Below are positions 28,326-45,475 of a stretch of DNA of 55,955 bases, piece by piece. This DNA is from Nitrososphaerota archaeon (GTDB lineage: Archaea; Thermoproteota; Nitrososphaeria_A; Caldarchaeales; Wolframiiraptoraceae), in NCBI GenBank assembly GCA_021163925.1, contig JAGGTD010000003.1, positions 1 through 55,955 on the forward strand, read 5' to 3'. The translations under genes and the position numbers were made by a program. A model generated the notes under the pieces. That model saw only the letters and a list, made by a program, of their open reading frames with translations, was not told where the DNA came from and ran no database searches. Numbering within the stretch: position 1 is the first letter of the stretch; each line of letters begins with the position of its first letter.

Positions 28326-29192
28326 ATGAGATTTAGGCCCGTTTTAAGGCCACTGCTCTGCAAACCCGTGATAGATAGACTTCTAAGGGCCAGGGATCGT
28401 GAAGAGGTTGTTAAGGTCTCATTAGATCTTGGCAGAAGCTTCCATGAATGCTCTATTCGAGGAGAGGGAGTTATGATAGGTGATCAGCTGATAAGGTGGG
28501 AGGAGTTGGAGAGAGCGTCGAAGAGGGAGAGGGATATATTCATGGTAGTTGATGGTAAGCTTCTCTCGCTCTCGATCTCAGGCAGACATTTCTATAAGCT
28601 GGTCTTCATAGGCTGGGGTCATCCACCAACCCTAGAGATAGATGGAATCCACATGCATAGGATCAAGGACGTAACCCCGGATAGGGATGCTTGGATGAAG
28701 GTTAAGCTATGCGGAGACTTGAGATGTAAGAGGGTGTTGGATACTTGTATGGGGCTTGGATATACGGCGATAGCGGCCCTAAAGATGGGTGCATGTAGAA
28801 TCGTCACAGTCGAGGTGGATGAGAACGTCGTTGAGCTGGCGAGGCTGAACCCATGGTCTAGGGAGCTCTCAGATGAGAGGATAGACTTCAGGCTTGGAGA
28901 TATAAGAGAGTTGATAGATGGATTCCATGGAGAATTCGATGCAATAATACATGATCCCCCGAGATTCTCCCTAGCCGGAGAACTCTATGGCCTCGAATTC
29001 TATAGAAAGCTGAATAAGGCGTTGAGGCTGGGTGGGAGGCTCGTCCACTATGTCGGCCAGCCTGGAGTCGTTAAGGGTAGGGCGATCTGGAAGGGCGTTA
29101 TGAGGAGGTTGAGGGAAGCCGGATTCGATGTGAAATATGATTCGAGGTCTCGATGCGTCTATGGGGTTAAGCTAAGAGATCTCAGCCCATAA
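28326..29192 (+). CDS. Predicted archaeal methyltransferase (COG2521 type)
   Basis: S-adenosylmethionine-dependent Rossmann methyltransferase of 288 residues. Motif I is RVLDTCMGLGYTAIAALKMGA, followed by IVTVEVDENVVELARLNPWS and the catalytic-loop word IIHDPPRFS (DPPR), resembling motif IV of amino-methyltransferases. The N-terminal 110 residues are specific to this archaeal group. Substrate unknown; RNA or protein is possible. ATG at 28326 follows the divergent deacylase by 47 bases. Its end overlaps the converging carbamoyltransferase gene by 11 bases. Confidence 0.78.
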   Translation: MRFRPVLRPLLCKPVIDRLLRARDREEVVKVSLDLGRSFHECSIRGEGVMIGDQLIRWEELERASKRERDIFMVVDGKLLSLSISGRHFYKLVFIGWGHPPTLEIDGIHMHRIKDVTPDRDAWMKVKLCGDLRCKRVLDTCMGLGYTAIAALKMGACRIVTVEVDENVVELARLNPWSRELSDERIDFRLGDIRELIDGFHGEFDAIIHDPPRFSLAGELYGLEFYRKLNKALRLGGRLVHYVGQPGVVKGRAIWKGVMRRLREAGFDVKYDSRSRCVYGVKLRDLSP

Positions 29193-30243
29193 TCATCGAC
29201 ATTATGGCCTTCTGGACGTGGAGCCTATTCTCGGCCTGATCGAATACCACCGAGTGGGGGCCATCGATCACCTCATCCGTCACCTCGTATCCCCTATCGG
29301 CTGGGAGGCAGTGCATGTAGATCACATCCCTCTTCGCAACCTCAAGCTTCTCCGAGTCGCAGATCCAGTCCCTATTCTTCTCGAATAGCTCCTTCATCCC
29401 ATCGAAGTCGGGCTTCGAGGCTTTCGGAGGAATATAGTTTAGGCTCAGCCAAGACTTTGGATAAACCACATCGGCGCCCTCGAAGGCCGCCTTCATATCA
29501 TGGACTATCTCGAATGATCCGCCGAACTCATCAGCATACTTCTTACATTGTTCGATCACCTTTGGATCTAGGTCAAATCCCCTTGGATGGGCTAGGACGA
29601 CATCCATCCCAAATCTCGTCGCGACCAAGACTGCGCTTTGGGGGACGGCTAGTGGCTTCTCGACGCTTGGGGTATATGCCCAGCTCATCACAAACTTCTT
29701 TCCCTCAACCTTCCCCAACTTCTCCTTAATCGTCATTATATCCGCCATGGCCTGGCATGGATGATACATGTCGCACTCCATGTTTATCACGGGGACATCG
29801 GCCCACCTCGCAAACTCTCTAATGATCCTATTCCCTCGGCCATAGATCCACTTAGCATGCTTCCCATAGATCCTGATGGCTATGCCATCACCATATCTTG
29901 AGAGAACCCTCGCGACATCGGCAATCCTCTCAGTCGTGTAAGCTATCTCATCTCCTGGAAGGGCTGGGGTGTAAATGGCGTCATGTGGGTCCAGGAAGTG
30001 GGCGTGGCCTCCGAGCTGCGTCATCCCAGCCTCAAAGCTATTCCTAGTCCTGAGAGATCTATTATAGAAGATCAGGAATAGAGTCTTCCCCTTGAGATAT
30101 GGGTGCTCGACCTTTTCCCTAAACTTCTTCTTCAAGTCCATGGCGGCGTCGAGGATTTGGTCAAGCTCCTCCCTACTCCACTCAATCGTCGTTATCCAAT
30201 CCCTACCACGATACATTCCAACATACTTGGGTAGCTCGGACAT
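29182..30243 (-). CDS. Knotted carbamoyltransferase, YgeW / N-acetylornithine carbamoyltransferase-like (copy 1)
   Basis: Aspartate/ornithine carbamoyltransferase superfamily, 353 residues. Carbamoyl-phosphate site SLRTR (63-67), HPCQ (161-164) and HCLP (311-314) are intact. The proline-rich segment WAYTPSVEKPLAVPQSA (188-204), RFGMDVVLAHPRGFDLDP and NRLHVQKAIM match the knotted branch that holds N-acetylornithine carbamoyltransferase and bacterial YgeW. Genetic context (cyclic amidohydrolase, second copy, AORs) favours a YgeW-like catabolic role, phosphorolysing a carbamoylated amino compound to carbamoyl phosphate, over arginine synthesis. It is the last gene of a three-gene minus-strand operon. 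Direction of reaction is inferred. Confidence 0.82.
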   Translation of the reverse strand: MSELPKYVGMYRGRDWITTIEWSREELDQILDAAMDLKKKFREKVEHPYLKGKTLFLIFYNRSLRTRNSFEAGMTQLGGHAHFLDPHDAIYTPALPGDEIAYTTERIADVARVLSRYGDGIAIRIYGKHAKWIYGRGNRIIREFARWADVPVINMECDMYHPCQAMADIMTIKEKLGKVEGKKFVMSWAYTPSVEKPLAVPQSAVLVATRFGMDVVLAHPRGFDLDPKVIEQCKKYADEFGGSFEIVHDMKAAFEGADVVYPKSWLSLNYIPPKASKPDFDGMKELFEKNRDWICDSEKLEVAKRDVIYMHCLPADRGYEVTDEVIDGPHSVVFDQAENRLHVQKAIMSMIMG

Positions 30244-30278
30244 CTAGATCCACCGAGAGAAGAGTGTTGATGGGGAGT

Positions 30279-31664
30279 TTAAGCTTTTCCACCTCCACAA
30301 ATCGGGGACAACCTTTCTGGACAACCTCTCTTAACATACTCTCCATATCCCTCGCGTCCAAGAACCTCTCCATCCCTATAGATTATCTCGCCTCTTAGGA
30401 TGGTCATGTAGATCCTCCCCCTACACATATACCCCTCATACGGCGTCCACCCAGATCTTTGATGGAGTTCATCGGCCTTAATCACCCACTCACGGTTTAG
30501 ATCGATCACGGTTAGATCCGCGTCCGAGCCTATCGCTATAACTCCCTTCTTGGGATAGAGTCCAAACCTCCTCGCTGGATTCTCGGAGAGCAGTCTAGCG
30601 AGATCCATGAGCGTGATCCTCCCCCGATTAACTCCCTCACTCAACATGAGTGGAAGTAGGGTCTCGATCCCCGGCAGCCCGCTCCTTATCGGCCAAATAT
30701 CACTCCATCCAGGCTCTCTATCCTCCTTGAATGTTGAGTAATGGTCTGTCGCAACTATATCTATCAACCCCCTTCTAAGACCTAGCCATAGAGCCTCCAA
30801 GTCCTCCCTCAATCTAAGGGGCGGGGTCATCTTGAGATATGGGCCAAGCCTCTCAACATCATCTCTCGTGAATATCAGGTAATGGGGGCATGTCTCACAG
30901 CTTATATCGACTCCACGATATTTCGCCTCCTCGATGAGCCTTAACCCCTCCATAGTCGTCAAGTGGACTATATGTACCCCGCATCCAGTCGCCCTCGAAT
31001 AGGCTATAACCCTGCCTATCCCCTCAACCTCCGCAAGCCTCGGCCTAGACTCATGGTATGCCATCGGATCTCTCCTATCCATCGACTTCAGCCTCTCGGT
31101 GTAGAGGTCTACGAGGAATCCATTCTCAGCGTGGAACATGCATAGCCCCCGACCCTTAACCATCTCCATAAGCCTCAAAATATCTCGATCGTCTATCATG
31201 TATGGCTTGCAGAGGAACAGCTTAAATGAGTTGACTCCAAGATCTATCAAAGAGTTTGGATCGAATCCTTCTAAGCTCCGTATATTTCCCGCATGTAGGC
31301 TGAAGTCTATGCGAGACCATCTCTCGCCGGCCTCAATCTTCTCTCTCAAAGCGTCAGCGGTGATATACGGCGTATCGGTAGGCATCTCGATTATCGTCGT
31401 GACCCCTCCAGCGGAGGCCGCCAAGCTTATCGACCTAAAATCCTCCCTCGGCCCAAAGTGTTTTGGATCATAGGCGTGGACGTGGACATCTATCGCCCCT
31501 GGGAGCACGTATCTCCCATTCAGATCTACTTCAACATCTCCCCTTGGTAGATGATTTATCGATGCTATGGAGACGATCTTTCCTCGATCGATCGCGACCC
31601 CGGCCTCGAAGACGCCCTCCTTAAGGACGAGCCTACAGTTCTTCAATACTAGGTCGACGGCCAA
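30279..31664 (-). CDS. Allantoinase / dihydropyrimidinase-like cyclic amidohydrolase
   Basis: Binuclear-metal amidohydrolase that opens cyclic ureides or amides. Metal ligands can be placed: H61 and H63 in GAIDVHVHAYD, carboxylated K148 in NSFKLFLCKP, H178 in CMFHAENG, H234 in GVHIVHLTT and D307 in IVATDHYST. CETCPHYLIFTRDDV is typical of allantoinases, so AllB is the nearest named type, though hydantoinases and dihydroorotases are close. Length is 461 residues and the start is TTG. It lies between two carbamoyltransferases on one strand, so ring opening to an N-carbamoyl product and its decarbamoylation are likely consecutive steps. No pyr-type neighbours support a dihydroorotase. Confidence 0.82.
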   Translation of the reverse strand: MAVDLVLKNCRLVLKEGVFEAGVAIDRGKIVSIASINHLPRGDVEVDLNGRYVLPGAIDVHVHAYDPKHFGPREDFRSISLAASAGGVTTIIEMPTDTPYITADALREKIEAGERWSRIDFSLHAGNIRSLEGFDPNSLIDLGVNSFKLFLCKPYMIDDRDILRLMEMVKGRGLCMFHAENGFLVDLYTERLKSMDRRDPMAYHESRPRLAEVEGIGRVIAYSRATGCGVHIVHLTTMEGLRLIEEAKYRGVDISCETCPHYLIFTRDDVERLGPYLKMTPPLRLREDLEALWLGLRRGLIDIVATDHYSTFKEDREPGWSDIWPIRSGLPGIETLLPLMLSEGVNRGRITLMDLARLLSENPARRFGLYPKKGVIAIGSDADLTVIDLNREWVIKADELHQRSGWTPYEGYMCRGRIYMTILRGEIIYRDGEVLGREGYGEYVKRGCPERLSPICGGGKA

Positions 31665-31722: not shown

Positions 31723-32757
31723 CTACTCATATAGCTTCTTACTCATGGTTAGGGTCAAGACCGCCATCTTGACGTATAATCCGTTCTCAGCCTGCTCGTA
31801 GATCACAGATCTTGGCCCATCCATAACCTCATCAGACGCCTCTTCACCCCTCAAGACTGGTAGGACGTGGGTGACTATCCCCTTCTTGTCCATTAGGTCG
31901 GCGAGGTCTTGGGTTAGACACCAATCCCTATATCTTCGATGGATCTCAAGCTCCCTCTCGACCCCGAATCTAGACGCACCGATGCTTAGGAGTTCCCAGC
32001 TCGCCCAGCTCCTCGGGAAGACCACATGAGCGCCCTCAACCGCTGGTTTAAGATCATTTGTTATCTCAAGGCTTCCACCACTTCTCTCCGCATTCTCCCT
32101 CGCCACCTTAACTATCTTGGGATCAAGGTTGAATCCGGGTGGATGGGCTACGACCACGTCCATCCCGAACCTCGTCATGATCAATAGCTCGGCCTGAATG
32201 CTGCATAGTCCTCTGAGCCTTGAGGCATAAGCCCACATAATCGTATACTTCTTCCCCTCAATCCTTCCAAGCCTCTCCCTGACGGTCATAAGGTCTTGGA
32301 TCGCTTGGGTTGGGTGATAGGTGCAGCATGCCATGTTTATCACGGGCTTCTCGGAGTGTCTCGCATACTCCATCACCGTCCACCTCCCAAGCCCATATCT
32401 GTAATCTATGGCCTTGTCGAGGCATCTAACCCCTATCCCATCACCATATCTCTCATACATCTTCGCCACATCCTTCAACCTCTCCCCAAACCCTATTCTA
32501 AGCGTTGAGACATCGATATATGACATATGGCCTCCAAGCAGGTTCATTCCAGCCTCGAATGCTGCTCTAGTTCTGGTCGATGGGGCATAGAAGATCGCGA
32601 AGAACGTCTTATCCTCTAGAAACTTTGGGAGCTTCTCCCCTCTCCTATGCATTTTCTTGAATTCCGATGCGAGTCTTATCGCCTCCTCTATCTCCTCAAC
32701 GCTCCAATCTTGAGTCGTGATCAAGTCTCTACCATATAGATCCACACCTATCTTCAT
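31723..32757 (-). CDS. Knotted carbamoyltransferase, YgeW-like, with altered active site (copy 2)
   Basis: Second carbamoyltransferase, 344 residues, first gene of the minus-strand operon. Carbamoyl-phosphate motif STRTR (60-64) and HPTQ (148-151) are kept, and RFGMDVVVAHPPGFNLDP shows kinship with copy 1. Two changes stand out: the HCLP motif is HVLP (297-300), losing the cysteine, and the proline-rich loop is WAYASRLRGLCSIQAE, lacking the prolines. It should therefore take a different amine partner from copy 1, or form a mixed enzyme with it. Its TATA box lies 28 bases before the ATG, opposite the promoter of the AOR operon. Confidence 0.8.
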   Translation of the reverse strand: MKIGVDLYGRDLITTQDWSVEEIEEAIRLASEFKKMHRRGEKLPKFLEDKTFFAIFYAPSTRTRAAFEAGMNLLGGHMSYIDVSTLRIGFGERLKDVAKMYERYGDGIGVRCLDKAIDYRYGLGRWTVMEYARHSEKPVINMACCTYHPTQAIQDLMTVRERLGRIEGKKYTIMWAYASRLRGLCSIQAELLIMTRFGMDVVVAHPPGFNLDPKIVKVARENAERSGGSLEITNDLKPAVEGAHVVFPRSWASWELLSIGASRFGVERELEIHRRYRDWCLTQDLADLMDKKGIVTHVLPVLRGEEASDEVMDGPRSVIYEQAENGLYVKMAVLTLTMSKKLYE

Positions 32758-32874: not shown

Positions 32875-33363
32875 TTGAGGAGAACTCTCCTAATCGATGC
32901 GGAAAAGTGTACGGGTTGTAGACTCTGCGAACTGGTCTGCTCATTTCAACATTACAAGGTCTTCAATCCAAGGAGATCTAGGATAACGGTGATAAGGGAT
33001 GAGGAGAAGGGAGTATTCATTCCAATGACGTGCCTTCAATGCGAAGATCCTCCATGCATGAAGACCTGTCCAACCCACGCGATCTATAGGGATGAGAATG
33101 GGGCGATTAGAATAGACTATGAGAAGTGTATAGGCTGCAAACTCTGCATAATGTACTGCCCATTCGGCGGAATCTCGATAGATCCCGTCACCATGAAGGT
33201 GATAAAATGCGATCTATGCGGAGGCGATCCAGAGTGTGTGAAGTACTGTCCGAAGGGAGCCATACAGTATGTTAGGGTGGATGAGGTTGGGGTCAAGAAG
33301 AGGATCGAGGGTGCCAAGAAGATTCATGAGAGGATTAAGGTGATCATGGGAGGTGAATCTTAG
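32875..33363 (+). CDS. Four-cluster [4Fe-4S] ferredoxin subunit, AOR partner 1
   Basis: Electron-transfer subunit of 162 residues resembling AorA/YdhY/HycB-type proteins. Sixteen cysteines form four motifs: CTGCRLCELVC, CLQCEDPPCMKTC, CIGCKLCIMYC and CDLCGGDPECVKYC, enough for four [4Fe-4S] clusters. No signal peptide, so it is cytoplasmic. Start TTG follows a clear promoter. The stop is two bases before the AOR ATG, so it is the direct redox partner of AOR 1. The second ferredoxin in this cluster keeps identical motif spacing, marking the pair as duplicates. Confidence 0.9.
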   Translation: MRRTLLIDAEKCTGCRLCELVCSFQHYKVFNPRRSRITVIRDEEKGVFIPMTCLQCEDPPCMKTCPTHAIYRDENGAIRIDYEKCIGCKLCIMYCPFGGISIDPVTMKVIKCDLCGGDPECVKYCPKGAIQYVRVDEVGVKKRIEGAKKIHERIKVIMGGES

Positions 33364-33365
33364 AG

Positions 33366-35300
33366 ATGTATAAGGGATATGCGGGGAGAATACTCCGCGT
33401 AGACCTAACGTCCAGAAGCGTCAAGGTGGAGCCGTTGCCGGATGGATTGGCGTTAAACTATCTGGGCGGGACGGGGTTCGCCTCCAGAATCCTCTGGGAT
33501 GAGGTGAACGCCGATACAGATCCACTAAGCCCGGAGAACGTCTTGATAATAGCGACAGGGCCCGTGAATGGAACAGCCTTCCCGCCATCCGGGAGATATA
33601 TGATGGCCTCAAAGTCTCCCTTAACAGGTATCTGGAGCGAGTCCCACGTCGGAGGCCACCTTGGACCAGAGCTGAAGTACGCAGGCTACGATATGATAGT
33701 CGTGAAGGGTCGAAGCTCTGAACCCGTATACCTGATGATCGATGATGATAGGGTTGAGGTTAGGGATGCCAAGAACATCTGGGGTAAGGATACGAGGGAG
33801 ACCGTGAAGACCCTATGGGATGAGCTTGGAGATAGATCGTTTAAGATCGCATGCATAGGGCCTGCCGGCGAAAACCTGGTCAAGATCTCCTCAGTCATCT
33901 CGGAGATGGGGAGGGCGGCTGCTAGAACGGGTATAGGAGCGGTCTGGGGTAGTAAGAGGCTCAAGGCAATAACGGTCAGGGGCTCAAGGGACATCGAGGT
34001 AGCCGATCCCGATGGATTCATGCAGCTCGTTAAGGAGTCGATCCGAATGTGCACCGAGGAGTTCTTCGGGAAGGCGGCTCAAGACACGCTTGGAAAGTAT
34101 GGAACTCCATGCTTGGTCGAGATGCTCAACTCGATTGGAAGGCTTCCGACAAAGAACCATTGGACAGGGGTCTTCGATAAGGCCAGCCTAATAGGCGGAG
34201 AGGCCATAAGGAGCAGGTATAGGTTTGCTCAAGCGCCATGCATGGCCTGCGTGATCCAATGTGGGTACATATCATATATTCGACATGGAAAATATGCTGG
34301 GACGATCACAAAAGGGCCTGAGTACGAGTCGATCTTCGCCCTCGGATCAAACTGCCTAGTCTCAGATATCGAGGCCATAATCCACATGAACATGCTCTGC
34401 AACCTCTATGGACTCGACACGATCTCGACTGGGAAGACTCTTTCATGGGCGATGGAATGCTATGAGCATGGACTCCTGACGAAGGATGATCTAGATGGGA
34501 CAGAGCTTAGGTGGGGGGATGTAGAGGCGATGATAAAGCTGATAGAGAAGATCGCGAGGAGGGATGGGGTTGGAGACATCTTGGCCGAGGGTGCTAAGAG
34601 GGCTTCGGAGAAGATTGGGAGAGGAACCGAGAAATATGTGATCCACGTCAAGGGGATGGAGGTCTCAGGCCAAGATCCGAGAGCACATAAATCCGCAGGC
34701 CTATCCCTCGCGATAGCGGTTAGAGGTGCAGATCACCTAAGAGCGTTATCCTCGATAGAGGAGCTTGGATTCACCCAGATAGTCGCCGATCGATATGGTG
34801 AGGATAAGGCCGACGCGTTGAGCGATAGGCTTAGCGAGGAGTATAAGGGCTTCCTGATAAAGGATATCGAGGACTTATACGCGATAACAGACTCCTTAAT
34901 CGTGTGCAAGTATGGGACCATGTGGCCTCCAATCTACTACTTCGACCACTTCGCCAAGCTCATACCACTCCTAACCGGGATGAAGGAGTATGGTGATGTG
35001 AGCTATGTCAGGCTCGTGGCCGAGAGGATATCGAATCTTAGGAGGTGTTTCAACGTGAGGGAGGGGATAACGAGAAGGGATGAGAACCTGCCCAAGAGAT
35101 TTACCGAGGAGCCCATGCCCCATGGACCAGCGAAGGGCCATGTCTGCAACCTCGAACCAATGCTCCGAGAATATTATCAATATAGGAGGTGGGATTATGA
35201 GACGGGTCTACCATATAGGGAGACGTTGGAGGAGCTCGGCCTAAAGGATGTCGCGGATGAGCTTGAGGCCATGGGGAGGGTTAAGAGGAGGGAGGGCTAA
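33366..35300 (+). CDS. aor: Tungsten-type aldehyde:ferredoxin oxidoreductase family protein, AOR 1
   Basis: Catalytic tungstopterin (or molybdopterin) subunit, 644 residues. The N-terminus YKGYAGRILRVDLT and GGTGFASRILWDEV are family marks. Cluster cysteines are C292-x2-C295-x3-C299 (CMACVIQC) and C514. Pterin-binding motifs NLYGLDT (346-352) and DSLIVCK are present, and SPLTGIWSESHVGGHLGPELKYAG forms the N-terminal cofactor site. The canonical pocket stretch here reads SGQDPRAHKSAG and VRGADHLRAL. Substrate is not readable, and family members oxidise aldehydes, reduce acids or work on aromatic thioesters. Context suggests a nucleobase or ureide step. Confidence 0.92.
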   Translation: MYKGYAGRILRVDLTSRSVKVEPLPDGLALNYLGGTGFASRILWDEVNADTDPLSPENVLIIATGPVNGTAFPPSGRYMMASKSPLTGIWSESHVGGHLGPELKYAGYDMIVVKGRSSEPVYLMIDDDRVEVRDAKNIWGKDTRETVKTLWDELGDRSFKIACIGPAGENLVKISSVISEMGRAAARTGIGAVWGSKRLKAITVRGSRDIEVADPDGFMQLVKESIRMCTEEFFGKAAQDTLGKYGTPCLVEMLNSIGRLPTKNHWTGVFDKASLIGGEAIRSRYRFAQAPCMACVIQCGYISYIRHGKYAGTITKGPEYESIFALGSNCLVSDIEAIIHMNMLCNLYGLDTISTGKTLSWAMECYEHGLLTKDDLDGTELRWGDVEAMIKLIEKIARRDGVGDILAEGAKRASEKIGRGTEKYVIHVKGMEVSGQDPRAHKSAGLSLAIAVRGADHLRALSSIEELGFTQIVADRYGEDKADALSDRLSEEYKGFLIKDIEDLYAITDSLIVCKYGTMWPPIYYFDHFAKLIPLLTGMKEYGDVSYVRLVAERISNLRRCFNVREGITRRDENLPKRFTEEPMPHGPAKGHVCNLEPMLREYYQYRRWDYETGLPYRETLEELGLKDVADELEAMGRVKRREG

Positions 35301-36461: not shown

Positions 36462-36464
36462 GAT

Positions 36465-36986
36465 TTGAAGCTCCTCATAATAGACTATGATCTATGCTCT
36501 GGTTGCAGGGTCTGCGAGCTCATATGCTCCATGGAGCACGCGGGGGTCTTCAAACCATCGGTCTCAAGGATAAGGGTCGTGAAGAACGATAAGCTGAGCA
36601 TAGACGTGCCCCTAGTCTGCATCCAATGCGAGAGCCCGACATGCGTGAACATCTGCCCAGCCAACGCGTTGAGCAAGGATAAGGAGACTGGGATAGTGAG
36701 GCTAGACCCAGATAAATGCATCGGCTGCAACCTCTGCATATTGAAGTGCCCATATCATGGAGTCTTCAAGACCCCTGATGGAGTCGTCGTGAAGTGCGAT
36801 CTATGTGGAGGAGATCCGAGATGCGTCAAATACTGTCCAACCGGAGCCTTACAATATGTTGAAGAGTCGCCCGAAACTAAGGCTAAGAGGGAGAAATCCA
36901 AGGAAAAGCTCCTAAAACTTCTAAGAGAATATGAATTGGAGAAGCCCGCCTTGAGGATTGCGAGGGTTGGAGGGAGCGGGGCTTGA
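36465..36986 (+). CDS. Four-cluster [4Fe-4S] ferredoxin subunit, AOR partner 2
   Basis: Duplicate of the first ferredoxin subunit, 173 residues. Motifs CSGCRVCELIC, CIQCESPTCVNIC, CIGCNLCILKC and CDLCGGDPRCVKYC give sixteen cysteine ligands in the same spacing. The C-terminus is longer and charged (ETKAKREKSKEKLLKLLREY), perhaps a docking helix. TTG start three bases after the PreA-like gene; its stop overlaps the TTG start of AOR 2 in TTGA. Transfers electrons between AOR 2 and an unidentified acceptor, possibly the PreA-like protein. Confidence 0.9.
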   Translation: MKLLIIDYDLCSGCRVCELICSMEHAGVFKPSVSRIRVVKNDKLSIDVPLVCIQCESPTCVNICPANALSKDKETGIVRLDPDKCIGCNLCILKCPYHGVFKTPDGVVVKCDLCGGDPRCVKYCPTGALQYVEESPETKAKREKSKEKLLKLLREYELEKPALRIARVGGSGA

Positions 36987-38896
36987 AGTATAAGGGATAT
37001 GTCGGCAGATATGCTTTAATTGATCTGACGAGACAGTCGATCCATATCGAGCCACTGAATGAGGGGCTTGCGAGAAACTATATCGGTGGAAGCGGTTTCG
37101 CCGCCAGAATCCTCTACGACATGCTCAAACCCGGGATAGATCCATTAAGCCCTGAAAATGTGGTGGTCGTCGCGACAGGTCCGTTAACCGGAACCCTATG
37201 GCCCACTACTGGGAGATATATGATGGCGTCGAAGTCCCCGTTGACTAGGATCTGGGGTGAGAGCCATGCTGGAGGACACTTCGGCCCAGAGCTCAAGTAT
37301 GCTGGATTCGATTATCTCGTGATAACTGGTAGGGGTGAAAGGCCGACCTACATCTACATCGATAACGGGAGGATCGAGCTTAGGAGGGCTGAACATCTAT
37401 GGGGGTTAAACGTCCACGAGGCGACGGACGCCATTAAGGAGGAGACCGATCCAAACGCGCACGTGGCATGCATAGGTCAGGCGGGAGAAAACCTAGTTAG
37501 GTTCGCCTCAGTGATAAGCGACTATCATAGAGCTCATGGGAGGACCGGTGTGGGAGCTGTTTGGGGAAGTAAGAGGCTCAAGGCCATAGCCGTTAGGGGG
37601 GATGGGGAGATTGAGGTCGCGGACCCGGAAAAGTTCATGGAACTCGTCGATGATGCTCATGAAAGGGTTCTAAAGCATCCACAGGCTAGAGACCTCGCAA
37701 AGTATGGAACACCGCTACTGGTTGGATATAAGCAGTCGATAGGAGAGTTCCCTACAAAGAACCATTGGACGGGAGTCTTCGATGGTGCGAAGGAGCTCAT
37801 GGCCGAGGTGTTGAAGGAGAGGTTTTGGGTGAGGGATAGGGCTTGCTTCTCATGCAGGGTTCAATGCAAGAAGGTATACACGGTTAGGGAGGGGAGATAT
37901 GCTGGAATAGTGTCCGAGGGGCCTGAATACGAGGGAATATACTCATTTGGATCAAATCTGGGAAACTCCGACTTCCCATCGATCTTCTACGCAAACTACC
38001 TCTGCAACAACTATGGACTAGACGCCATATCAACTGGATGCGTGATCGCCTTCCTAACCGAGTGCGTTGAGCGTGGGATAGTCGGTAGGGATGAGGTTGA
38101 TTGTCTCGACCTCAAATGGGGAAATCATGAGGCGTTCATCGAGCTAATCCACAAGATAGCGAAGCGTGAGGGTATAGGAGACCTCCTAGCTGAGGGGGTT
38201 AAGAGGGCGTCTGAGAAGATTGGGAGAGGCTCAGAATACTACGCGATCCACGTAAAGGGATTGGAGGTCTCAGGCCAAGATGGGAGAACCCATAGATCGA
38301 TAGGATTGAGCCACGCGGTCGCAAGCAGGGGCGCAGACCATCTGAGAGGACTCGTCACCGTCGACCAGCTTGGATATGAGGAGATAGCGGCGAAGAGGTG
38401 GGGTAGGGATAAGCTCCCAGACATATGCAACCCATATAGTGAGAAGTGGAAGGCCTTAGCAGTCAAGACAACCGAGGATGTCTACGCGGTGAGGGATCTA
38501 TTGATAGTATGCTGGTATACGGTCTCATGGCCTCCGATCTACTGGATCGAGGACTTCGCCAAGATACTTCCAGCCGCGACCGGAGAGGAGGCATTTGGAA
38601 GGGTTGAGGAGCTCTTGAAGATAGGCGAGAGGGTCGTGAATCTTGAGAGGTGCTTCAACGTTAGGGAGGGGATAACGAGGAAGGATGACAGGCTTCCGAG
38701 GAGATTCATCGAGGAACCCATGCCCGAGGGGCCTGGAAAGGGTCAAACCGTCAATCTCGACTTAATGCTGGATGAATACTATGATTTGAGGGGATGGGAT
38801 AGGGAGACCGGGATACCGAGGAAGGAAACCCTTGAGAGGCTTGGGCTCATCAAGGAGATCGAGGACTTGAGGAGGATGGGAAGGCTTCCAGAATAA
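36983..38896 (+). CDS. aor: Tungsten-type aldehyde:ferredoxin oxidoreductase family protein, AOR 2
   Basis: 637 residues, closely related to AOR 1. Cluster cysteines C288, C291, C295 (CFSCRVQC) and C510; pterin motifs NNYGLDA (near 345-351) and RDLLIVC. The pocket segment is SGQDGRTHRSIGLS followed by SRGADHLRGL, and the N-terminal site is SPLTRIWGESHAGGHFGPELKYAG. Residue differences from AOR 1 at these places suggest a related but different substrate. It is coupled to its ferredoxin and followed after nine bases by an amidohydrolase, so the oxidation product or its precursor may be handled by that enzyme. Confidence 0.92.
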   Translation: MKYKGYVGRYALIDLTRQSIHIEPLNEGLARNYIGGSGFAARILYDMLKPGIDPLSPENVVVVATGPLTGTLWPTTGRYMMASKSPLTRIWGESHAGGHFGPELKYAGFDYLVITGRGERPTYIYIDNGRIELRRAEHLWGLNVHEATDAIKEETDPNAHVACIGQAGENLVRFASVISDYHRAHGRTGVGAVWGSKRLKAIAVRGDGEIEVADPEKFMELVDDAHERVLKHPQARDLAKYGTPLLVGYKQSIGEFPTKNHWTGVFDGAKELMAEVLKERFWVRDRACFSCRVQCKKVYTVREGRYAGIVSEGPEYEGIYSFGSNLGNSDFPSIFYANYLCNNYGLDAISTGCVIAFLTECVERGIVGRDEVDCLDLKWGNHEAFIELIHKIAKREGIGDLLAEGVKRASEKIGRGSEYYAIHVKGLEVSGQDGRTHRSIGLSHAVASRGADHLRGLVTVDQLGYEEIAAKRWGRDKLPDICNPYSEKWKALAVKTTEDVYAVRDLLIVCWYTVSWPPIYWIEDFAKILPAATGEEAFGRVEELLKIGERVVNLERCFNVREGITRKDDRLPRRFIEEPMPEGPGKGQTVNLDLMLDEYYDLRGWDRETGIPRKETLERLGLIKEIEDLRRMGRLPE

Positions 38897-38905: not shown

Positions 38906-40249
38906 ATGGCCTCTAAGAACCTCTTGATCAAGGGCGGGACTATAGTCACGATGGATCGGGAGCGGAGGATAATCGAGGATGGAGCAATATTGGTCGAGGA
39001 TGGGAGGATAACGTCTATCGGAAAGGCGGATGAGTTTGGGGGAGAGAAGGCTGATAGAGTAATAGATGCGTCGGGAAAATACATCTTTCCAGGATTTATA
39101 AACTGCCACACCCACATGTTCCAAGTCCTCCTAAGAGATGTGGCCATGGACATGGTCCTCCTAGACTGGCTCAAGACCTCGATCTGGCCTAGTATAAGAC
39201 ATCTGAGGGAGGAAGACATCTACATAGCTGCTAAGCTCGGGATAATCGAGAACATCAGATCTGGGGTGACATGCATAGTCGATAACCAGTATCCCAGAAA
39301 CTATGAAGCATCGATAAGGGCCATGCACGAGTCTGGGATAAGAGGAGTTCTAGCATGTGGATACTATGAGATCAACGTCCCAGAGGATTTGAGGATGGAT
39401 GCGGATAAAGCCTTGAAGATATGCGAGGAGGTGATCAGGAGATGGCATGGGAGGGATGAGGGGAGGTTGAGGGTGTGTCCGGCTCCGATGCATCCATGCT
39501 TCGCCTCAAAGGAACTCCTACTGAAGTCCAAGGAGCTCGCGGACAAGTATCATACATATCTACACGTGCATACGGCTGAGAGCGTGAAGGATGTCGAGCT
39601 ACTTAAGCAGATGACCGGGAAGACCGATGTAGAATACCTCCATGAGCTTGGAATACTCGATGAGAGATTTCACGCCGTCCACGCGGTTCAGGTATCGCCG
39701 GGGGAGATGAGAATGCTCGCATCGGCTCACGCGAACATAATCCACAACCCAATCAGCAACGCATACACCGGAGCTGGGGTCGCCCCAATTCCAGAATATC
39801 TAAGGCTTGGATGTAACGTCGCCCTCGGGACCGATGGCCCGGCCAGCGGAGGGAATCACGACTTCCTCCAATCCATGAAGTTCACGGCCTTGATCCATAA
39901 GGGGTTTAGGAGGGATCCAACAGTCATGAGGGTCTCGGAGATATTGGAGATGGCGACGATAAATGGGGCCAAGGCTCTTGGAATGGAGGATGAGCTAGGA
40001 TCTCTTGAGGCTGGGAAGAGGGCGGACCTAATCATATTGGATCTCCATAAGCCTCACACCGTATACGTCCATGACCCGATCGCAAATCTAGTATATGCTG
40101 CGACGAGCGAGAACATCGAGACAGTCATAGTCGATGGCGAGATCTTGATGGAGGATAGGAGGATAACCTACATCGATGAGGAGGAGGTCATGGCTGAGGC
40201 CTCAAAGGTCGCGGAGAGGTTGATGGAAAGGTTTTCAAGACGTGGCTAA
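38906..40249 (+). CDS. Amidohydrolase of the Atz/Trz (deaminase) family
   Basis: Mononuclear metal deaminase or hydrolase, 447 residues. Metal ligands are HTH in FINCHTHMFQ, His in HVHTAESV, His in FHAVHAVQVS and Asp in ALGTDGPASGG. The nearest named groups are S-adenosylhomocysteine/methylthioadenosine deaminases, guanine deaminases and chlorohydrolases, which act on amino- or chloro-substituted purine- and triazine-like rings. It lies in the AOR operon, so deamination of an aminopurine or similar base is the best guess. Its first 60 residues are strikingly like those of the SsnA-like protein encoded at 41531-42895 on the other strand (both contain MDRERRIIEDG), so the two are paralogues. 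Confidence 0.82.
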   Translation: MASKNLLIKGGTIVTMDRERRIIEDGAILVEDGRITSIGKADEFGGEKADRVIDASGKYIFPGFINCHTHMFQVLLRDVAMDMVLLDWLKTSIWPSIRHLREEDIYIAAKLGIIENIRSGVTCIVDNQYPRNYEASIRAMHESGIRGVLACGYYEINVPEDLRMDADKALKICEEVIRRWHGRDEGRLRVCPAPMHPCFASKELLLKSKELADKYHTYLHVHTAESVKDVELLKQMTGKTDVEYLHELGILDERFHAVHAVQVSPGEMRMLASAHANIIHNPISNAYTGAGVAPIPEYLRLGCNVALGTDGPASGGNHDFLQSMKFTALIHKGFRRDPTVMRVSEILEMATINGAKALGMEDELGSLEAGKRADLIILDLHKPHTVYVHDPIANLVYAATSENIETVIVDGEILMEDRRITYIDEEEVMAEASKVAERLMERFSRRG

Positions 40250-40268: not shown

Positions 40269-41528
40269 ATGGCGTATGTAACCCATCTAAGATGTTCGAG
40301 GTGTGGCTCCGAGTATAGGCTTGAGGATGGGAAGGTTATCTGCGATAGGGATGACCTCGGACGCCTAGACATCTACTACGACTATGAGGCGATCTCAAGA
40401 ACCCTGACGAAAGAGGCTCTTGAGAAGAGGAGGGGCGGGGTCTGGAGATACTTTGAACTATTACCCGTGTCTAGGAGGTCTTCTATCGTGAGCCTCGGCG
40501 AGGGTGGGACTCCGATGATAAGATCTGAACGACTTTCCAGGCATCTCGGCTTAAAGAACCTATACCTGAAGGATGAGACGAGGAATCCAACAGCTTCCTT
40601 CAAGGATAGATCTATGACTGTTGGGGTATCGAAGGCGGTGGAGCTTGGGGTTAAGAAGACCTGCACAGCTTCGAGTGGAAATGCGGCCGCAGCCCTCGCA
40701 GCATACTCGGCCAAGGCCGGGCTAGAGTGCTATGCATTCGTCTTAGAGGAGGCGTCGATCGGGAAGATCTCCCAGCTCCAGCTCTATGGTGCGAAGGTGT
40801 TTAGAGTTAGGAGGGTTGAGGAGGGGGTTGATCCAACGGTCCAGCTACTCAGGCTCGTAGTCAAGAACTATGGCTGGTATCCATGCCCAAGCTTCGGGCC
40901 ATTCAACCCATATCAGGTTGAGGGGCCTAAGACGATATCATATGAGATCGTTGAGCAGCTTGGCTGGAGGATTCCAGACTGGATACTCATCCCAACAGGC
41001 TCTTCATGTCTCTTGGCCGGGATCTGGAAGGGGCTTAGAGACTACTATGAACTGGGCTGGATAGATCATCTTCCAAGATTGGCGGCGATCCAGTCCACTG
41101 GAAACGCGCCGTTTGTGAGGGCGTTTAAGGAGGGGATGGATCCGATGAATATAGAGCCTTGGAGGAATCCGAGGACGGTTGCGAGCGGGTTGATGGACCC
41201 ATATCCATGGGATGGAGACGCCGGCCTAATCGCCTTGAAGGAGACCGATGGTGTGGCCGAAGCCGTTCCAGACGATCTAATCCTAGAGGCTCAGAAACTC
41301 TTGGCGTCGATGGAGGGCATGTTCGCCGAGCCATCTGGAGCGGCGGGCTTGGCCGGGGCCATGAAGCTCTTAGAAGATGGGGTCATAGATCCGAGCGATG
41401 AGGTCGTGGTCCTCGTGACCGGCAGCGGCTTAAAGGATCCAGATATAGTTAAGAGTATGTTCGCGGAGCCTCCGATGATAGGTCCGAGCCTTGAGGAGTT
41501 TAGGAGGATGCTGAATCGATTGGGTTGA
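40269..41528 (+). CDS. Threonine synthase-like PLP fold-type II enzyme
   Basis: Pyridoxal-phosphate enzyme of 419 residues. PLP lysine in NPTASFKDRSMTVG, substrate loop SSGNAAAALAAYSAKAG, and phosphate-binding IPTGSSCLLAGIWKGL follow the archaeal threonine synthase pattern. The N-terminal zinc-ribbon-like part has CSRCG but only one of the second cysteine pair (ICDRDD). The plain call is threonine synthase. However, it is the last gene of a catabolic AOR operon, 19 bases after a deaminase, with no threonine-pathway neighbours, so a lyase role comparable to YgeX (diaminopropionate ammonia-lyase, same fold type) is a serious alternative. Confidence 0.75.
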   Translation: MAYVTHLRCSRCGSEYRLEDGKVICDRDDLGRLDIYYDYEAISRTLTKEALEKRRGGVWRYFELLPVSRRSSIVSLGEGGTPMIRSERLSRHLGLKNLYLKDETRNPTASFKDRSMTVGVSKAVELGVKKTCTASSGNAAAALAAYSAKAGLECYAFVLEEASIGKISQLQLYGAKVFRVRRVEEGVDPTVQLLRLVVKNYGWYPCPSFGPFNPYQVEGPKTISYEIVEQLGWRIPDWILIPTGSSCLLAGIWKGLRDYYELGWIDHLPRLAAIQSTGNAPFVRAFKEGMDPMNIEPWRNPRTVASGLMDPYPWDGDAGLIALKETDGVAEAVPDDLILEAQKLLASMEGMFAEPSGAAGLAGAMKLLEDGVIDPSDEVVVLVTGSGLKDPDIVKSMFAEPPMIGPSLEEFRRMLNRLG

Positions 41529-41530
41529 TC

Positions 41531-42895
41531 TCATCTTATCCTATCTAGCTCGGGCTTAACCTCCTTTAACCTATCCCAGAGCCTCTCCGCAGACCTCTGG
41601 GCGATCGCCTCAACCTCATCCTCATCTACGGTTAAGACCTTTCTATCCCTCATCAAGATCCTTCCATCAACTATAACCGTCTGGACATCATCTCCATCAA
41701 CCGTGTTCACCAGATGGCCGTAAACGGTCTCGGCGTTGAGCGGGGTTGGCAGGACATCGGGTTTTATGATGATTATATCCGCGAGCTTCCCAACCTCAAG
41801 CGAGCCAACCTCTTCGTCAACGCCATAGAGTTCGGCGCCCTTGATAGTCGCCATCTCCAAAACCTGTAGCGGCGTCATCATCCTCGGATCTCGATAATGG
41901 ACCTTGTGGAGTAGGTAGGCTGCCCGTATATTCTCGAATCCGTCGAAGATGTATCCATCGTTTCCCAGCCCGACCCTGATCCCCATATCGATCATCTTGG
42001 GGATGGCCGCGACCCCAACCGCATTCAACATATTGCTCATCGGGTTATGCGCGACGTTCGTCCCAGTCTCGGCCAAGATCTTCAACTCGTCATCGTTTAG
42101 ATGGACGCAGTGAGCCAAGACCACATCCCTCCCAAGAAACCCCACATCTCTAAGCCTCTCAACCGTCCGCTTCCCATATCTCTCCAAGTTATGATAGACG
42201 TCGACCAAGCCCTCAGACGTATGCATGGTTATCGGGACCTTCAGCTCATTAGCCTTCTCTCTGACGAGCTTTAGGAGGTCGTCGGATACGGTAAAGCTCG
42301 CGTGTAAGCATAGCATCCCTCTGACCCTCCCCTTATCCCCAACTTTCTCAATGTATCTGATGCACTCCTTAACCCCCCTCTCACCCTCCTCCCTACTATG
42401 CCTCTCCGTTGCCTCGAATGAGATGAAACCTCTAATCCCGATCCTCTCAACCGCTTCACCGATCCTATCCAAGACGCCCTCAATGGAGTTTGGGCCGGAG
42501 TAGGTGTCGGCGAATAGGGTCGTCCCAGTCTTCAAGAACTCTAGGCATCCTACCAAGGCGCTCGCGTATGCGTCGTCATGGGTTAATGCTTCATCGACAG
42601 GCCACCAAATCCATTGGAGGTTCTGCATGAAGTCTGTTGGAGGCTTGATCTTGGCGAAAAGTGGAGCGCCTCTAAGGAGCATTCCATAGAGATGGGTGTG
42701 GGAGCAGATCAATCCAGGCATCACTACGCATCCTTTAGCATCTATCTCCTCATCCGCCCTCACTCCCGAGAACTCGGACATCTTCCCAATCTTACTTATC
42801 TTTCGATCCTCGACCAATATCCCCCCATCCTCAATTATCCTCCGCTCCCGATCCATCGTGACGAGCAAACCATTCTTGATCAGAATGCTACCCAC
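41531..42895 (-). CDS. ssnA: SsnA-like amidohydrolase
   Basis: Metal-dependent amidohydrolase of 454 residues resembling bacterial SsnA, a member of the purine-degradation gene set. Ligands: H66 and H68 in GLICSHTHLYG, His in PITMHTSEG, His in VVLAHCVHLND and Asp in GLGNDGYIFDG. The stretch SGPNSIEGVLDRIGEAVE and NLQWIWWPVDEAL are SsnA-like. GTG at 42895 is preferred because GAGGTG lies six bases upstream and the protein then begins at the conserved ILIKNGLLVTMD; the frame is open back to ATG at 42952. It converges with the PLP enzyme gene and diverges from ferredoxin 3. Reaction unproven, probably deamination or ring opening of a purine-derived compound. Confidence 0.83.
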   Translation of the reverse strand: MGSILIKNGLLVTMDRERRIIEDGGILVEDRKISKIGKMSEFSGVRADEEIDAKGCVVMPGLICSHTHLYGMLLRGAPLFAKIKPPTDFMQNLQWIWWPVDEALTHDDAYASALVGCLEFLKTGTTLFADTYSGPNSIEGVLDRIGEAVERIGIRGFISFEATERHSREEGERGVKECIRYIEKVGDKGRVRGMLCLHASFTVSDDLLKLVREKANELKVPITMHTSEGLVDVYHNLERYGKRTVERLRDVGFLGRDVVLAHCVHLNDDELKILAETGTNVAHNPMSNMLNAVGVAAIPKMIDMGIRVGLGNDGYIFDGFENIRAAYLLHKVHYRDPRMMTPLQVLEMATIKGAELYGVDEEVGSLEVGKLADIIIIKPDVLPTPLNAETVYGHLVNTVDGDDVQTVIVDGRILMRDRKVLTVDEDEVEAIAQRSAERLWDRLKEVKPELDRIR

Positions 42896-43002
42896 ATTAA
42901 GCACCTCAATAACGAAGATGTCTTGATGATAGATAAGTGATTCACCTAACATGGAAAAATCTTAAATCAGGGGAGAGGTCGAGATCATGAGGGTGTCATC
43001 GA

Positions 43003-43473
43003 ATGCCATATATCTACGCCGATCCATCGAGGTGCACTGGATGCGAGATATGCGTCTTAACATGCTCATTCACATACTTCAAGGTCTTAAATCCGAAAAA
43101 GGCTAGGTTGAGGGTCGTGAGGATGGAGCCCGCGATAGATTTGGTGATCGCTTGCAGGAATTGTGAGAGGGCGCCGTGTATGGAGGCATGTCCGAACGAA
43201 GCCATCAAGAGAACATCTAAGGGGATAATCGTGGTAGATGAGGGGAGATGCGATGGATGTGGAAGATGCGTCGAGGCATGTCCCCTAGATGCCATCCACA
43301 TACCGCCCAATGGGAGGGCTCCGATAAAGTGTGTGGCCTGTGGAGCATGTGTTCAAGCATGTCCCGTGGGATGTCTCAAGATGGCTTATAGCTTTGAGGA
43401 GGCGTTTGAGAAGCGAAGGAACTATGCTGAGAGGCTTAAGGAGATAATCTTGAGCTTGAGGAATAGTGGATAG
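43003..43473 (+). CDS. Four-cluster [4Fe-4S] ferredoxin subunit, AOR partner 3
   Basis: 156 residues with CTGCEICVLTC, CRNCERAPCMEAC, CDGCGRCVEAC and CVACGACVQAC, sixteen cysteines for four clusters. It is more diverged than partners 1 and 2, lacking their CDLCGGDP word in the last motif. ATG start with GAGGGTG upstream, and a TATA-like AATCTTAAATC about 40 bases before it, in the short region shared with the divergent ssnA-like gene. It precedes AOR 3 by 88 bases; AOR 3 seems to have its own promoter as well. Confidence 0.88.
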   Translation: MPYIYADPSRCTGCEICVLTCSFTYFKVLNPKKARLRVVRMEPAIDLVIACRNCERAPCMEACPNEAIKRTSKGIIVVDEGRCDGCGRCVEACPLDAIHIPPNGRAPIKCVACGACVQACPVGCLKMAYSFEEAFEKRRNYAERLKEIILSLRNSG

Positions 43474-43528
43474 CTGGGGCTCATCAGCTCGGTCAAAAAT
43501 CATCGATTCAAGTTGGAGATTGAATAGA

Positions 43529-43537
43529 TTTTATATG
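43529..43537 (+). promoter_or_regulatory. TATA box of the AOR 3 gene
   Basis: TTTTATATG centred 29 bases before ATG at 43562. It supports that ATG as the true start and a leaderless message separate from the ferredoxin 3 transcript. Confidence 0.45.
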
Positions 43538-43561
43538 GGGCGATTCACCGACTTATTCGGC

Positions 43562-45475
43562 ATGCGGTATAAGGGATATGCTGGTAGAATTCTCTGGATA
43601 GATCTAACCCATGAGAAGGTTAGGGTCGAGGATTTCCCGGAGAAACTCGCGGAAAGATATCTCGGAGGATCTGGAATATGCGCGAGAATACTCTACGACC
43701 TAATCAAGCCCGGAATAGATCCACTCAGCCCAGAGAACGTCTTGATGTTCGCGACCGGGCCATTAACCGGAACCCTCTTCCCCCAAGCATGTAGGTATAC
43801 GGTCGCGGCCAAGTCTCCATTAACGGGTATTTGGGGAGAGTCTCATGCCGCCGGACACTGGGCTCCAGAGCTGAAGTTCGCGGGCTATGATGCGATAATA
43901 TTTCTCGGAAGGGCGTCTAAGCCCGTCTATCTCTGGATAGATGACGATGAGGTCGAGATCAAGGATGCTGGAGAGATTTGGGGGAGAACGGTCCTAGAGA
44001 CCGATGACATCCTAAGGGAAGAGCATGGAGAGGATGTTAAGGTTGCTTGTATAGGCCCTGCTGGAGAGAACTTGGTTAGATATGCTGCGATAATGAATGA
44101 CAGGTATAGGGCCGCTGCGAGATCTGGGATGGGGGCGGTCATGGGGAGCAAGAACCTAAAGGCCATAGCGGTGAGAGGCTCAAGGGACATCGAGGTCGCG
44201 GATCCAGAAGCATACATGGATCATGTTAGGAGATGGCATCGAAAGATGCTCAGCCACCCATTCATGCCCGACAGGGCGAAGTATGGGACAACTAACTTGA
44301 TCGAGCTTATGCAGAAGATCGGGAGGCTCCCAACCTATAACCTCCGTCAAGGGGTCTTCGATGAATACTATAAGATCGGCGGGGAGACCATTTACAGGAA
44401 ATATCTCGTTAAGCCCGTAGCAGACTTCGCATGCCTCCAGAGATGCGGGAGATACACAGCGGTCTATAATGAGCCATATAGGTGCATGGGCGGCGGCCCT
44501 GAGTATGAGACCCTATGCTCCCTAGGATCGAGATGCGGGGTATCGAATATCGAGGCGATCCTATACGGGAATTGGCTCTGCAACAATCTGGGGCTCGACT
44601 CCGTCTCCGCCGGAGGAACGATCTCATGGGCGATGGAATGCTATGAGCTTGGCCTGATATCGAGGGATGAGCTGGATGGACTCGACCTAAGATTCGGTAA
44701 TGAGGAGGCGATGATCGAGCTGCTCATAAAGATCGCTTATAGGAGGGGGGTTGGAGACCTATTGGCGGAGGGGAGCTGGAGGGCTGCGAAGAAGATCGGA
44801 AGGGGAACCGAGAGATACGTGATGCACGTAAAGGGCCAGGAGATAGCGTCTCAGGAGCCTAGAGCCCAGAAGTCCATGGGTCTGGCCATAGCCACGGCTG
44901 CGAGGGGAGCGGATCACCTCTATGGGTTCCCGGTCTTGGATGAGGTCGGGTTTGAGAAGGAGATTAGGGAGAGGTTTGGGGAGGAGTATCTGCCCGAGAT
45001 CGCTGATAGGCTGAATCCAAAGTATAAGGGGTTCATGGTTAAGGAGTGCGAGGACTATATGGCCGTGGTGGAGGCGGTTGGGGTATGTAAGTATGGAACC
45101 CAGATCCCCCCAGTCTTCTACTATCAAGACATGGTGGATGCGTTGAGGGTTACGTGTGGAATGGATGTAGATGTCAGAAAGCTCAAGATGATTGGGGAGA
45201 GGATAGTGAACCTGAATCGAGCATTCAACATCAGAGAGGGGATAAGTAGGAAGGACGACACCCTACCCGAGAGATTGACGAAGGTTCCAGCCCCCCTAGG
45301 GCCGGCCAAGGGCCACGTCGTCGAACTAGATCAGATGCTTGACGAATACTATCGATGTAGGGGATGGGATTTAGAGACCGGTAAGCCGACCTATGAGAAA
45401 TTACTCTCACTCGGATTGGAGGATGTTGCAGAGGATCTATTGAGGAAAGGATTGATAAGGAAGGCTGAGAGCTAA
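43562..45475 (+). CDS. aor: Tungsten-type aldehyde:ferredoxin oxidoreductase family protein, AOR 3, with Asp at a cluster-ligand position
   Basis: 637 residues from ATG at 43562, chosen because it begins MRYKGYAGRILWIDLT like its paralogues; the frame is open back to 43466 without family-like sequence. Pterin motif NNLGLDS (351-357 area) and GVCK with C509 are normal, and the pocket segment reads ASQEPRAQKSMG then ARGADHLYGF. Unusually the first cluster ligand is not cysteine: the motif is D288-F-A-C291-L-Q-R-C295 where AOR 1 and 2 have C-x2-C-x3-C. The aspartate may ligate the cluster, as Asp14 does in Pyrococcus ferredoxin, or the cluster may be [3Fe-4S]. Preceded by ferredoxin 3. Confidence 0.9.
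   Translation: MRYKGYAGRILWIDLTHEKVRVEDFPEKLAERYLGGSGICARILYDLIKPGIDPLSPENVLMFATGPLTGTLFPQACRYTVAAKSPLTGIWGESHAAGHWAPELKFAGYDAIIFLGRASKPVYLWIDDDEVEIKDAGEIWGRTVLETDDILREEHGEDVKVACIGPAGENLVRYAAIMNDRYRAAARSGMGAVMGSKNLKAIAVRGSRDIEVADPEAYMDHVRRWHRKMLSHPFMPDRAKYGTTNLIELMQKIGRLPTYNLRQGVFDEYYKIGGETIYRKYLVKPVADFACLQRCGRYTAVYNEPYRCMGGGPEYETLCSLGSRCGVSNIEAILYGNWLCNNLGLDSVSAGGTISWAMECYELGLISRDELDGLDLRFGNEEAMIELLIKIAYRRGVGDLLAEGSWRAAKKIGRGTERYVMHVKGQEIASQEPRAQKSMGLAIATAARGADHLYGFPVLDEVGFEKEIRERFGEEYLPEIADRLNPKYKGFMVKECEDYMAVVEAVGVCKYGTQIPPVFYYQDMVDALRVTCGMDVDVRKLKMIGERIVNLNRAFNIREGISRKDDTLPERLTKVPAPLGPAKGHVVELDQMLDEYYRCRGWDLETGKPTYEKLLSLGLEDVAEDLLRKGLIRKAES

Follow-up and report, generated by a model that had tools for sequence, protein, structure and literature searches.

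A compact group of 13 genes in a hot-spring-type Nitrososphaerota archaeon (Caldarchaeales, Wolframiiraptoraceae) probably encodes the anaerobic reductive pathway of uric-acid (purine) degradation in an archaeal form, in which a tungsten-type aldehyde ferredoxin oxidoreductase (AOR) would occupy the place of the molybdenum enzyme XdhD. This identification, made from gene families and their neighbourhoods, is supported in outline, and catalysis by an AOR on purines is its most interesting claim. The genes lie at positions 29182-45475 of a contig of 55,955 bases with 50.9% GC, which is referred to here, over its full length, as the window. The window is contig C2 of a source assembly (G000) of 1.10 Mb in 78 contigs, the completeness of which is estimated at 81%.

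The reductive pathway was recently worked out by two groups in gut bacteria (Li et al. 2025, PMC12507026; commentary PMC12990295). Urate is converted by XdhD to yanthine, which is reduced by YgfK or UacX to dihydro-yanthine and then opened by SsnA to ureidomethyl-hydantoin. HyuA turns this into 2,3-diureidopropionate, YgeW forms amino-ureidopropionate and carbamoyl phosphate, YgeY yields 2,3-diaminopropionate and YgeX produces pyruvate (PMC12507026, PMC12990295). Judged by gene family, the window contains an equivalent for each of these reaction classes. The original prediction had likened the locus to bacterial purine and ureide clusters, a parallel that holds in outline and can now be refined to the reductive uric-acid route. 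The cluster is made up as follows.

29182-30243, minus strand: CT1, YgeW-superclade carbamoyltransferase that carries a knot segment (PF02729 and PF00185, motifs, tree)
30279-31664, minus strand: HyuA-type cyclic amidohydrolase (identity to bacterial HyuA, metal ligands)
31723-32757, minus strand: CT2, second carbamoyltransferase (motifs STRT/HPTQ/HVLP; OTCace family)
32875-33363, plus strand: Fd1, ferredoxin partner of AOR1 with four [4Fe-4S] clusters (16 Cys spread over four motifs)
33366-35300, plus strand: AOR1, tungsten-type AOR family (PF02730 and PF01314)
35301-36461, plus strand: UacX, DHO_dh domain and two [4Fe-4S] clusters (identity to Cetobacterium UacX, loop loss)
36465-36986, plus strand: Fd2, ferredoxin partner of AOR2 with four [4Fe-4S] clusters (Cys cluster motifs)
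36983-38896, plus strand: AOR2, AOR family (Pfam domains, tree)
38906-40249, plus strand: AHA, Atz/Trz amidohydrolase resembling 5'-deoxyadenosine deaminase (family models)
40269-41528, plus strand: pyridoxal phosphate (PLP) fold-II enzyme, a threonine-synthase-like paralogue (family models)
41531-42952, minus strand: SsnA, Atz/Trz amidohydrolase (best NCBIfam model SsnA; homology starts near base 42898)
43003-43473, plus strand: Fd3, ferredoxin partner of AOR3 with four [4Fe-4S] clusters (Cys cluster motifs)
43562-45475, plus strand: AOR3, AOR family (similarity, NCBIfam, tree)

Every gene class listed in the original prediction is present, and the tight packing it described is borne out. CT1, HyuA and CT2 run on the minus strand, the seven genes from Fd1 to the PLP enzyme on the plus strand, SsnA again on the minus strand and the Fd3-AOR3 pair on the plus strand. 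The two divergent starts are separated by 117 and 50 bases, and the remaining intergenic gaps lie between -8 and 58 bases.

The protein at 35301-36461 had been described as a PreA-like flavin/Fe-S protein. The DHO_dh domain and the two [4Fe-4S] clusters are confirmed, but the protein is closer to UacX. It is 44% identical (310 bits) to UacX of the uric-acid cluster of Cetobacterium somerae, which also contains YgeX, YgeY, a D-aminoacylase (UacY), SsnA, a guanine deaminase (GuaD), xanthine dehydrogenase (XDH) and HyuA, and only 30-31% identical to uracil-type PreA. The 12-residue loop carrying the catalytic Cys (N-x-S-C-P) is retained in PreA and PydA, but is absent from the window protein, from Cetobacterium UacX and from the archaeal UacX proteins examined. 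The low identity and the missing loop together rule out a uracil-type PreA. The protein is proposed to be UacX and is predicted to act as a ferredoxin-dependent yanthine reductase. Its first base directly follows the stop codon of AOR1. It is 53% identical to UacX of a Desulfurococcales archaeon, suggesting that the cluster is a mosaic.

Two Atz/Trz amidohydrolases, one of them SsnA-like, were correctly recognised in the original prediction. The best NCBIfam model of the latter is SsnA (401 bits); the protein is 34% identical to Cetobacterium SsnA, retains the HxH/H/H/D metal ligands and may carry out the hydrolytic ring opening of dihydro-yanthine. The cyclic amidohydrolase, first called allantoinase-like, does belong to the hydantoinase/allantoinase family. 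It is 32% identical to HyuA of both E. coli and Cetobacterium, and the ligands HxH, Lys, H, H and D all align. The allantoinase model gives the highest score, far under its cut-off, and was set aside, because the HyuA context and the ligands fit better; the enzyme may thus open ureidomethyl-hydantoin. The notion that the amidohydrolases are the ring openers would hold for SsnA and HyuA. AHA is 26% identical to E. coli GuaD and 38% identical to the window SsnA. Since the pathway appears to be the reductive uric-acid route, with UacX in place of PreA, AHA is more likely a purine-entry deaminase than a ring opener.

The two carbamoyltransferases had been called YgeW-like. In a tree of 82 sequences, one superclade (support 90/96) comprises three groups, namely CT1, CT2, and YgeW together with its Chloroflexi-type homologues. 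It is separate from ArgF and from the acetylornithine-type enzymes, the latter being identified in the tree by their neighbours and motifs only. CT1 and CT2 are thus relatives of YgeW in separate subfamilies outside the YgeW clade itself. Their scores against the YgeW models TIGR03316 and NF005538 (180-193 bits for CT1 and 150-155 bits for CT2) lie under the cut-offs of 500 and 453. CT1 carries the motifs SLRT/HPCQ/HCLP and the segment SWAYTPSVEKPLAVPQS; its group includes homologues from Bipolaricaulota, Thorarchaeota, Cloacimonadota and Desulfurococcales. CT2 shows the motif set STRT/HP[TMF]Q/H[AVC]LP given for YgeW-type enzymes (YTCase; PMC4016543). By analogy with YgeW, CT1 is proposed to cleave 2,3-diureidopropionate phosphorolytically into amino-ureidopropionate and carbamoyl phosphate. 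In several Chloroflexi and Actinomycetota loci (L065, L067, L070, L071 and L073) a carbamoyltransferase of the YgeW superclade is paired with a very divergent second one, possibly the "pseudo-ATCase" of PMC4016543. When plasmids were searched with YgeW, useful reference sequences came only from Enterococcus, Collinsella and Pusillibacter.

No match to YgeY was found among the window proteins, as the original prediction had said. Among 31 loci of the superclade, YgeY occurs in none of the 13 with a second carbamoyltransferase versus 9 of the 18 with one (Fisher p = 0.004, the loci being treated as independent despite their relatedness). This exclusion suggests that YgeY is missing because CT2 takes its place in removing the second ureido group, in which case carbamoyl phosphate would be gained from both. 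Carbamate kinase (ArcC), likewise reported missing from the window, is encoded elsewhere in the same genome (contig C6, 1762-2736) and is 71% identical to the cluster-linked ArcC of relatives.

The downstream part of the cluster is conserved in the same order, as a survey of 44 genomes showed (the window genome included). A close CT1 homologue occurs in 16 of these genomes and an SsnA homologue (54-59% identity) in 13 besides the window genome. Exactly these 13 also carry a luciferase/F420-family reductase at least 80% identical to that of genome G024, and their clusters hold CT1, CT2, the PLP enzyme, a second PLP enzyme (PLP2), carbamate kinase (431 bits, above the curated cut-off of 358) and XDH trios. 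XDH is found at no less than 58% identity in 10 of the 13, and the other three genomes are incomplete. Homologues of the PLP enzyme in related clusters are 54-60% identical to it, and PLP2 of the window genome lies on contig C9 (68% identity). A separate threonine-synthase-like (ThrC-like) gene is found on contig C55 of the genome.

This molybdenum version (G003, G024, G027-G029, G031, G033, G035, G037 and G039) resembles the variant with a luciferase/F420-type reductase reported for Chloroflexota uricolytic clusters (PMC12507026). It has homologues of CT1, CT2, the PLP enzyme, SsnA, ArcC and PLP2 in common with the window genome, but contains XDH trios and the F420-type reductase where the window has AORs and UacX. 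Neither the reductase nor XDH is present in the window assembly at its 81% completeness. A shared cassette headed by differing redox enzymes suggests that UacX stands in for the F420 reductase and that the ferredoxin-AOR modules stand where the relatives have XDH. Two further loci differ in content. In a genome of the same genus (G001; L021, 3413-14411) a smaller sister cluster holds CT1, HyuA, PydA, a deaminase and one ferredoxin-AOR pair; its PydA is of the uracil type, keeps the catalytic loop and is apparently split into two open reading frames by a frameshift, so that the cluster looks like a pyrimidine version. Locus L025 (G042) has CT1, CT2 (73% identical to that of the window), the PLP enzyme, PLP2, HyuA and ArcC, with no close SsnA, XDH or F420 reductase found.

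The gene set CT1, CT2, PLP enzyme, SsnA and ArcC thus recurs jointly within the order, and other archaeal families have it together with UacX. When 398 genomes of the phylum were searched with a UacX profile, strong UacX proteins appeared in four further archaeal families. PLP-UacX-SsnA-ArcC-CT1-CT2 sets surround UacX in G255, G376 and G356, and in G384 the order is CT2-UacX-PLP-CT1-PLP2-XDH-HyuA. Genomes of archaeal family f6 (L176, L178 and L180-L186), several of which consist of one contig, have SsnA-UacX-ArcC sets, and in some (G131 and G136) UacX occurs with no SsnA nearby. XDH is missing from three of the 21 UacX-positive genomes tested (G000, G324 and G367). An AOR of the clade found in the window lies beside UacX in only two of the 21, both among these three. 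The other one is G367, a distant archaeon rated 100% complete with no XDH-family protein, in which the genes for AOR, UacX and SsnA form a single overlapping operon (L193, 7344-11721) and a HyuA-like gene lies about 11 kb away. To judge by its gene content, this operon is a second, independent case.

The three ferredoxin-AOR modules (32875-35300, 36465-38896 and 43003-45475, all on the plus strand) are confirmed, each ferredoxin having 16-17 Cys in four cluster motifs. The AFOR_N and AFOR_C domains were identified by Pfam in AOR1 and AOR2, and AOR3 was assigned by similarity and NCBIfam. Homology of AOR3 begins at an internal ATG at 43562, which is the likely start, and not at the GTG at 43466. 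The match to the Pyrococcus furiosus enzyme (PfAOR, 1aor) scores 465 bits. Like this enzyme and the Aromatoleum AOR (8c0z), AOR1-3 have both domains, a four-cluster ferredoxin partner gene and the residue corresponding to PfAOR His448, which is retained in all three. They differ from known tungsten AORs in their nucleobase-catabolism context and in the residue at the position of PfAOR Glu332, which is His in AOR1, Tyr in AOR2 and AOR3, and His, Tyr or Asp in the wider clade. The replacement is consistent with another substrate, but is only a weak argument for one, because other AORs, including that of Aromatoleum, have Lys or Tyr at this position. The CxxCxxxC cluster motif is intact in AOR1 and AOR2. 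In AOR3 an Asp replaces the first Cys (ADFACLQRC), a change that may affect the [4Fe-4S] cluster of this enzyme.

AOR1-3 form one clade (support 97/89), which groups with the AORs of G367, G001 and G008/G014 (support 94/95). AOR3 is 50% identical to the UacX- and SsnA-linked AOR of G367. The G001 AOR adjoins CT1, HyuA, PydA and a deaminase, and the G008/G014 AORs adjoin a cytosine-deaminase-like protein and a PnrA-like ATP-binding cassette (ABC) importer. Within the sample of the trees, the clade was met solely in nucleobase-type contexts. We tentatively propose, at somewhat less than even confidence, that AOR1-3 and the G367 enzyme act at the ring carbons of purines by oxo/hydroxyl exchange, converting urate to yanthine and probably oxidising hypoxanthine and xanthine. 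A tungsten AOR would thereby act on an N-heterocycle in the role of a molybdenum hydroxylase, in an archaeal fermentation that would gain two carbamoyl phosphates per purine. The idea that AORs replace the molybdenum hydroxylase, already put forward in the original prediction, gains comparative support from XDH in the relatives' cluster, its absence here and the XDH-free operon of G367; activity on nucleobases is suggested by replacement and linkage. We know of no AOR activity on any purine, and the literature searched held no report of one. As no MoCoBD_2 match, and hence no XDH-family protein, was found in the window or anywhere in its assembly, the cluster would be a variant that works like the reductive uric-acid pathway, not a strict member of it.

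In the proposed pathway, AHA would deaminate incoming purines and one or two AORs would oxidise them. A ferredoxin-linked AOR, instead of XdhD, would dehydroxylate urate, giving yanthine (2,8-dioxopurine). The later steps, from yanthine to pyruvate, are modelled on the bacterial enzymes: UacX would reduce yanthine with ferredoxin, SsnA would open the reduced ring, and HyuA would then open the hydantoin to 2,3-diureidopropionate. CT1 and CT2 would take off both ureido groups as carbamoyl phosphate, from which ArcC, encoded elsewhere, would make two ATP. The PLP enzyme would finally cleave 2,3-diaminopropionate to pyruvate and ammonia by beta-elimination. Its role, like that of CT2, is suggested by replacement and linkage.

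Several observations weigh against this pathway. The score of SsnA is below the curated cut-off of 444 bits. The PLP enzyme, which had been thought to parallel YgeX, is a fold-II enzyme of the threonine-synthase-like kind, and a comparison with YgeX and DpaL turned up no useful similarity. No NCS2 purine permease occurs in the genome, which has a PnrA-like ABC importer in the window instead. With the assembly 81% complete, an XDH gene could lie in the portion that it lacks. In G001 and G008/G014, AORs of the AOR1-3 clade stand beside uracil-type genes, a setting that has no need of urate dehydroxylation. CT1 passes the N-acetylornithine carbamoyltransferase model NF003384 (322 bits versus a cut-off of 288; CT2, with 212, does not), and the same enzyme is its best PDB match. 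Automatic annotation will misname CT1 on account of this score. If the carbamoyltransferases were indeed anabolic enzymes of arginine synthesis, their neighbours would be an unrelated collection. This is extremely improbable: neither protein groups with ArgF or the acetylornithine-type enzymes, a separate ArgF-type gene is present in the genome (contig C4, tree row L122), and the linkage with ArcC, SsnA, UacX and XDH is recurrent. The anabolic reading was rejected on the basis of the tree and the separate gene.

The main alternative accepts the purine pathway but takes the ferredoxin-AOR modules to be oxidising aldehydes, the usual AOR activity, and so only to be feeding low-potential ferredoxin electrons to UacX. 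The adjacency of UacX and AOR1 would suit this arrangement, as would the NCBIfam models nearest to Fd1, which include AegA/YgfT of formate-dependent uric-acid utilisation. The supply of electrons would resemble that by formate, which supports urate use in enteric bacteria. Urate breakdown by Enterococcus is incomplete without formate (PMC12507026); the uracil-type neighbours of the AOR1-3 clade, moreover, need a reductant only. However, the step from urate to yanthine would then be left without an enzyme in two XDH-free genomes, three diverged paralogues would serve a single job, and the pathway yields no aldehyde for them to oxidise. The Tyr, His or Asp at the Glu332 position also speaks against ordinary aldehyde oxidation. 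Overall, this explanation is unlikely. A quite unlikely explanation is that the cluster breaks down pyrimidines, hydantoins or another ureide, its relatives of UacX and SsnA having shifted to some other heterocycle. It draws on the pyrimidine-type cluster of G001 (PydA with its catalytic loop, HyuA and CT1) and on a Pusillibacter plasmid that groups PreA, an amidohydrolase and a carbamoyltransferase. Yet the window UacX has lost the catalytic loop typical of uracil enzymes and most resembles UacX from uricolytic clusters, SsnA and a PLP lyase are hallmarks of the urate route (PMC12507026), and two carbamoyltransferases suit a substrate with two ureido groups.

In common with the pathway of E. 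coli, C. difficile and C. sporogenes, the putative archaeal uric-acid pathway has SsnA, UacX of the C. difficile type, HyuA, a carbamoyltransferase with carbamate kinase, a PLP fold-II enzyme and, as the likely donor, ferredoxin. It differs in having three ferredoxin-AOR modules for XdhD, a second carbamoyltransferase for YgeY and a threonine-synthase-like enzyme for YgeX. The YgeW/dehydrogenase X1 module (Barba et al. 2013, PMC4016543) similarly places a carbamoyltransferase beside a DHOD-family dehydrogenase, HyuA, SsnA and carbamate kinase, but AORs are not part of that set, and CT1 and CT2 are two sister subfamilies outside its YgeW clade. A bacterial association of carbamoyltransferase and AOR genes was seen in a metagenome-assembled genome of Deltaproteobacteria (L066, 2838-14070), in which a branched-chain-type importer and then a ferredoxin-AOR pair (29% identity to AOR2) come after ArcC-CT1-HyuA. 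A study of the tungsten-dependent Wolframiiraptoraceae assigns AOR-type enzymes to aldehyde metabolism, and its main text does not mention purine, xanthine, carbamoyl or amidohydrolase (PMC9246946). In agreement with the original prediction, no description of archaeal or tungsten-dependent purine degradation was found in the open-licence PMC literature.

Other genes of the window may be related in function.

11976-12815, plus strand: phosphorylase-superfamily (PNP_UDP_1) protein, possible nucleoside phosphorylase (domain match)
12885-18126, plus strand: ABC importer, possibly for nucleoside uptake (PnrA/Bmp-like binding protein at 14578-15996, ATPase, two BPD_transp_2 permeases)
23194-26471, plus strand: two adjacent MoeA paralogues for molybdenum/tungsten cofactor insertion (context genes)

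The phosphorylase gene and the complete PnrA/Bmp-type importer that follows it (11976-18126) lie about 11 kb upstream of the cluster and are likely to serve nucleoside uptake. The MoeA pair near the AOR cluster may represent separate molybdenum and tungsten insertion enzymes. A fourth AOR (50669-52498, minus strand) belongs to another clade, together with Desulfurococcaceae-type AORs; it is 41% identical to AOR2 and is not linked to the cluster.

With this cluster, the recently elucidated reductive route of uric-acid breakdown would reach into the archaea, hyperthermophile lineages among them. At the head of a conserved cassette, molybdenum XDH would have been exchanged in nature for tungsten AOR, a swap of both metal and enzyme family. 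It is also proposed that a second carbamoyltransferase can stand in for YgeY and so double the ATP gained from the ureide groups. If AORs do act on purines, this would be new chemistry for the family. Orphan AORs would gain a testable substrate class, and one reason would be offered why tungsten is vital to this lineage.

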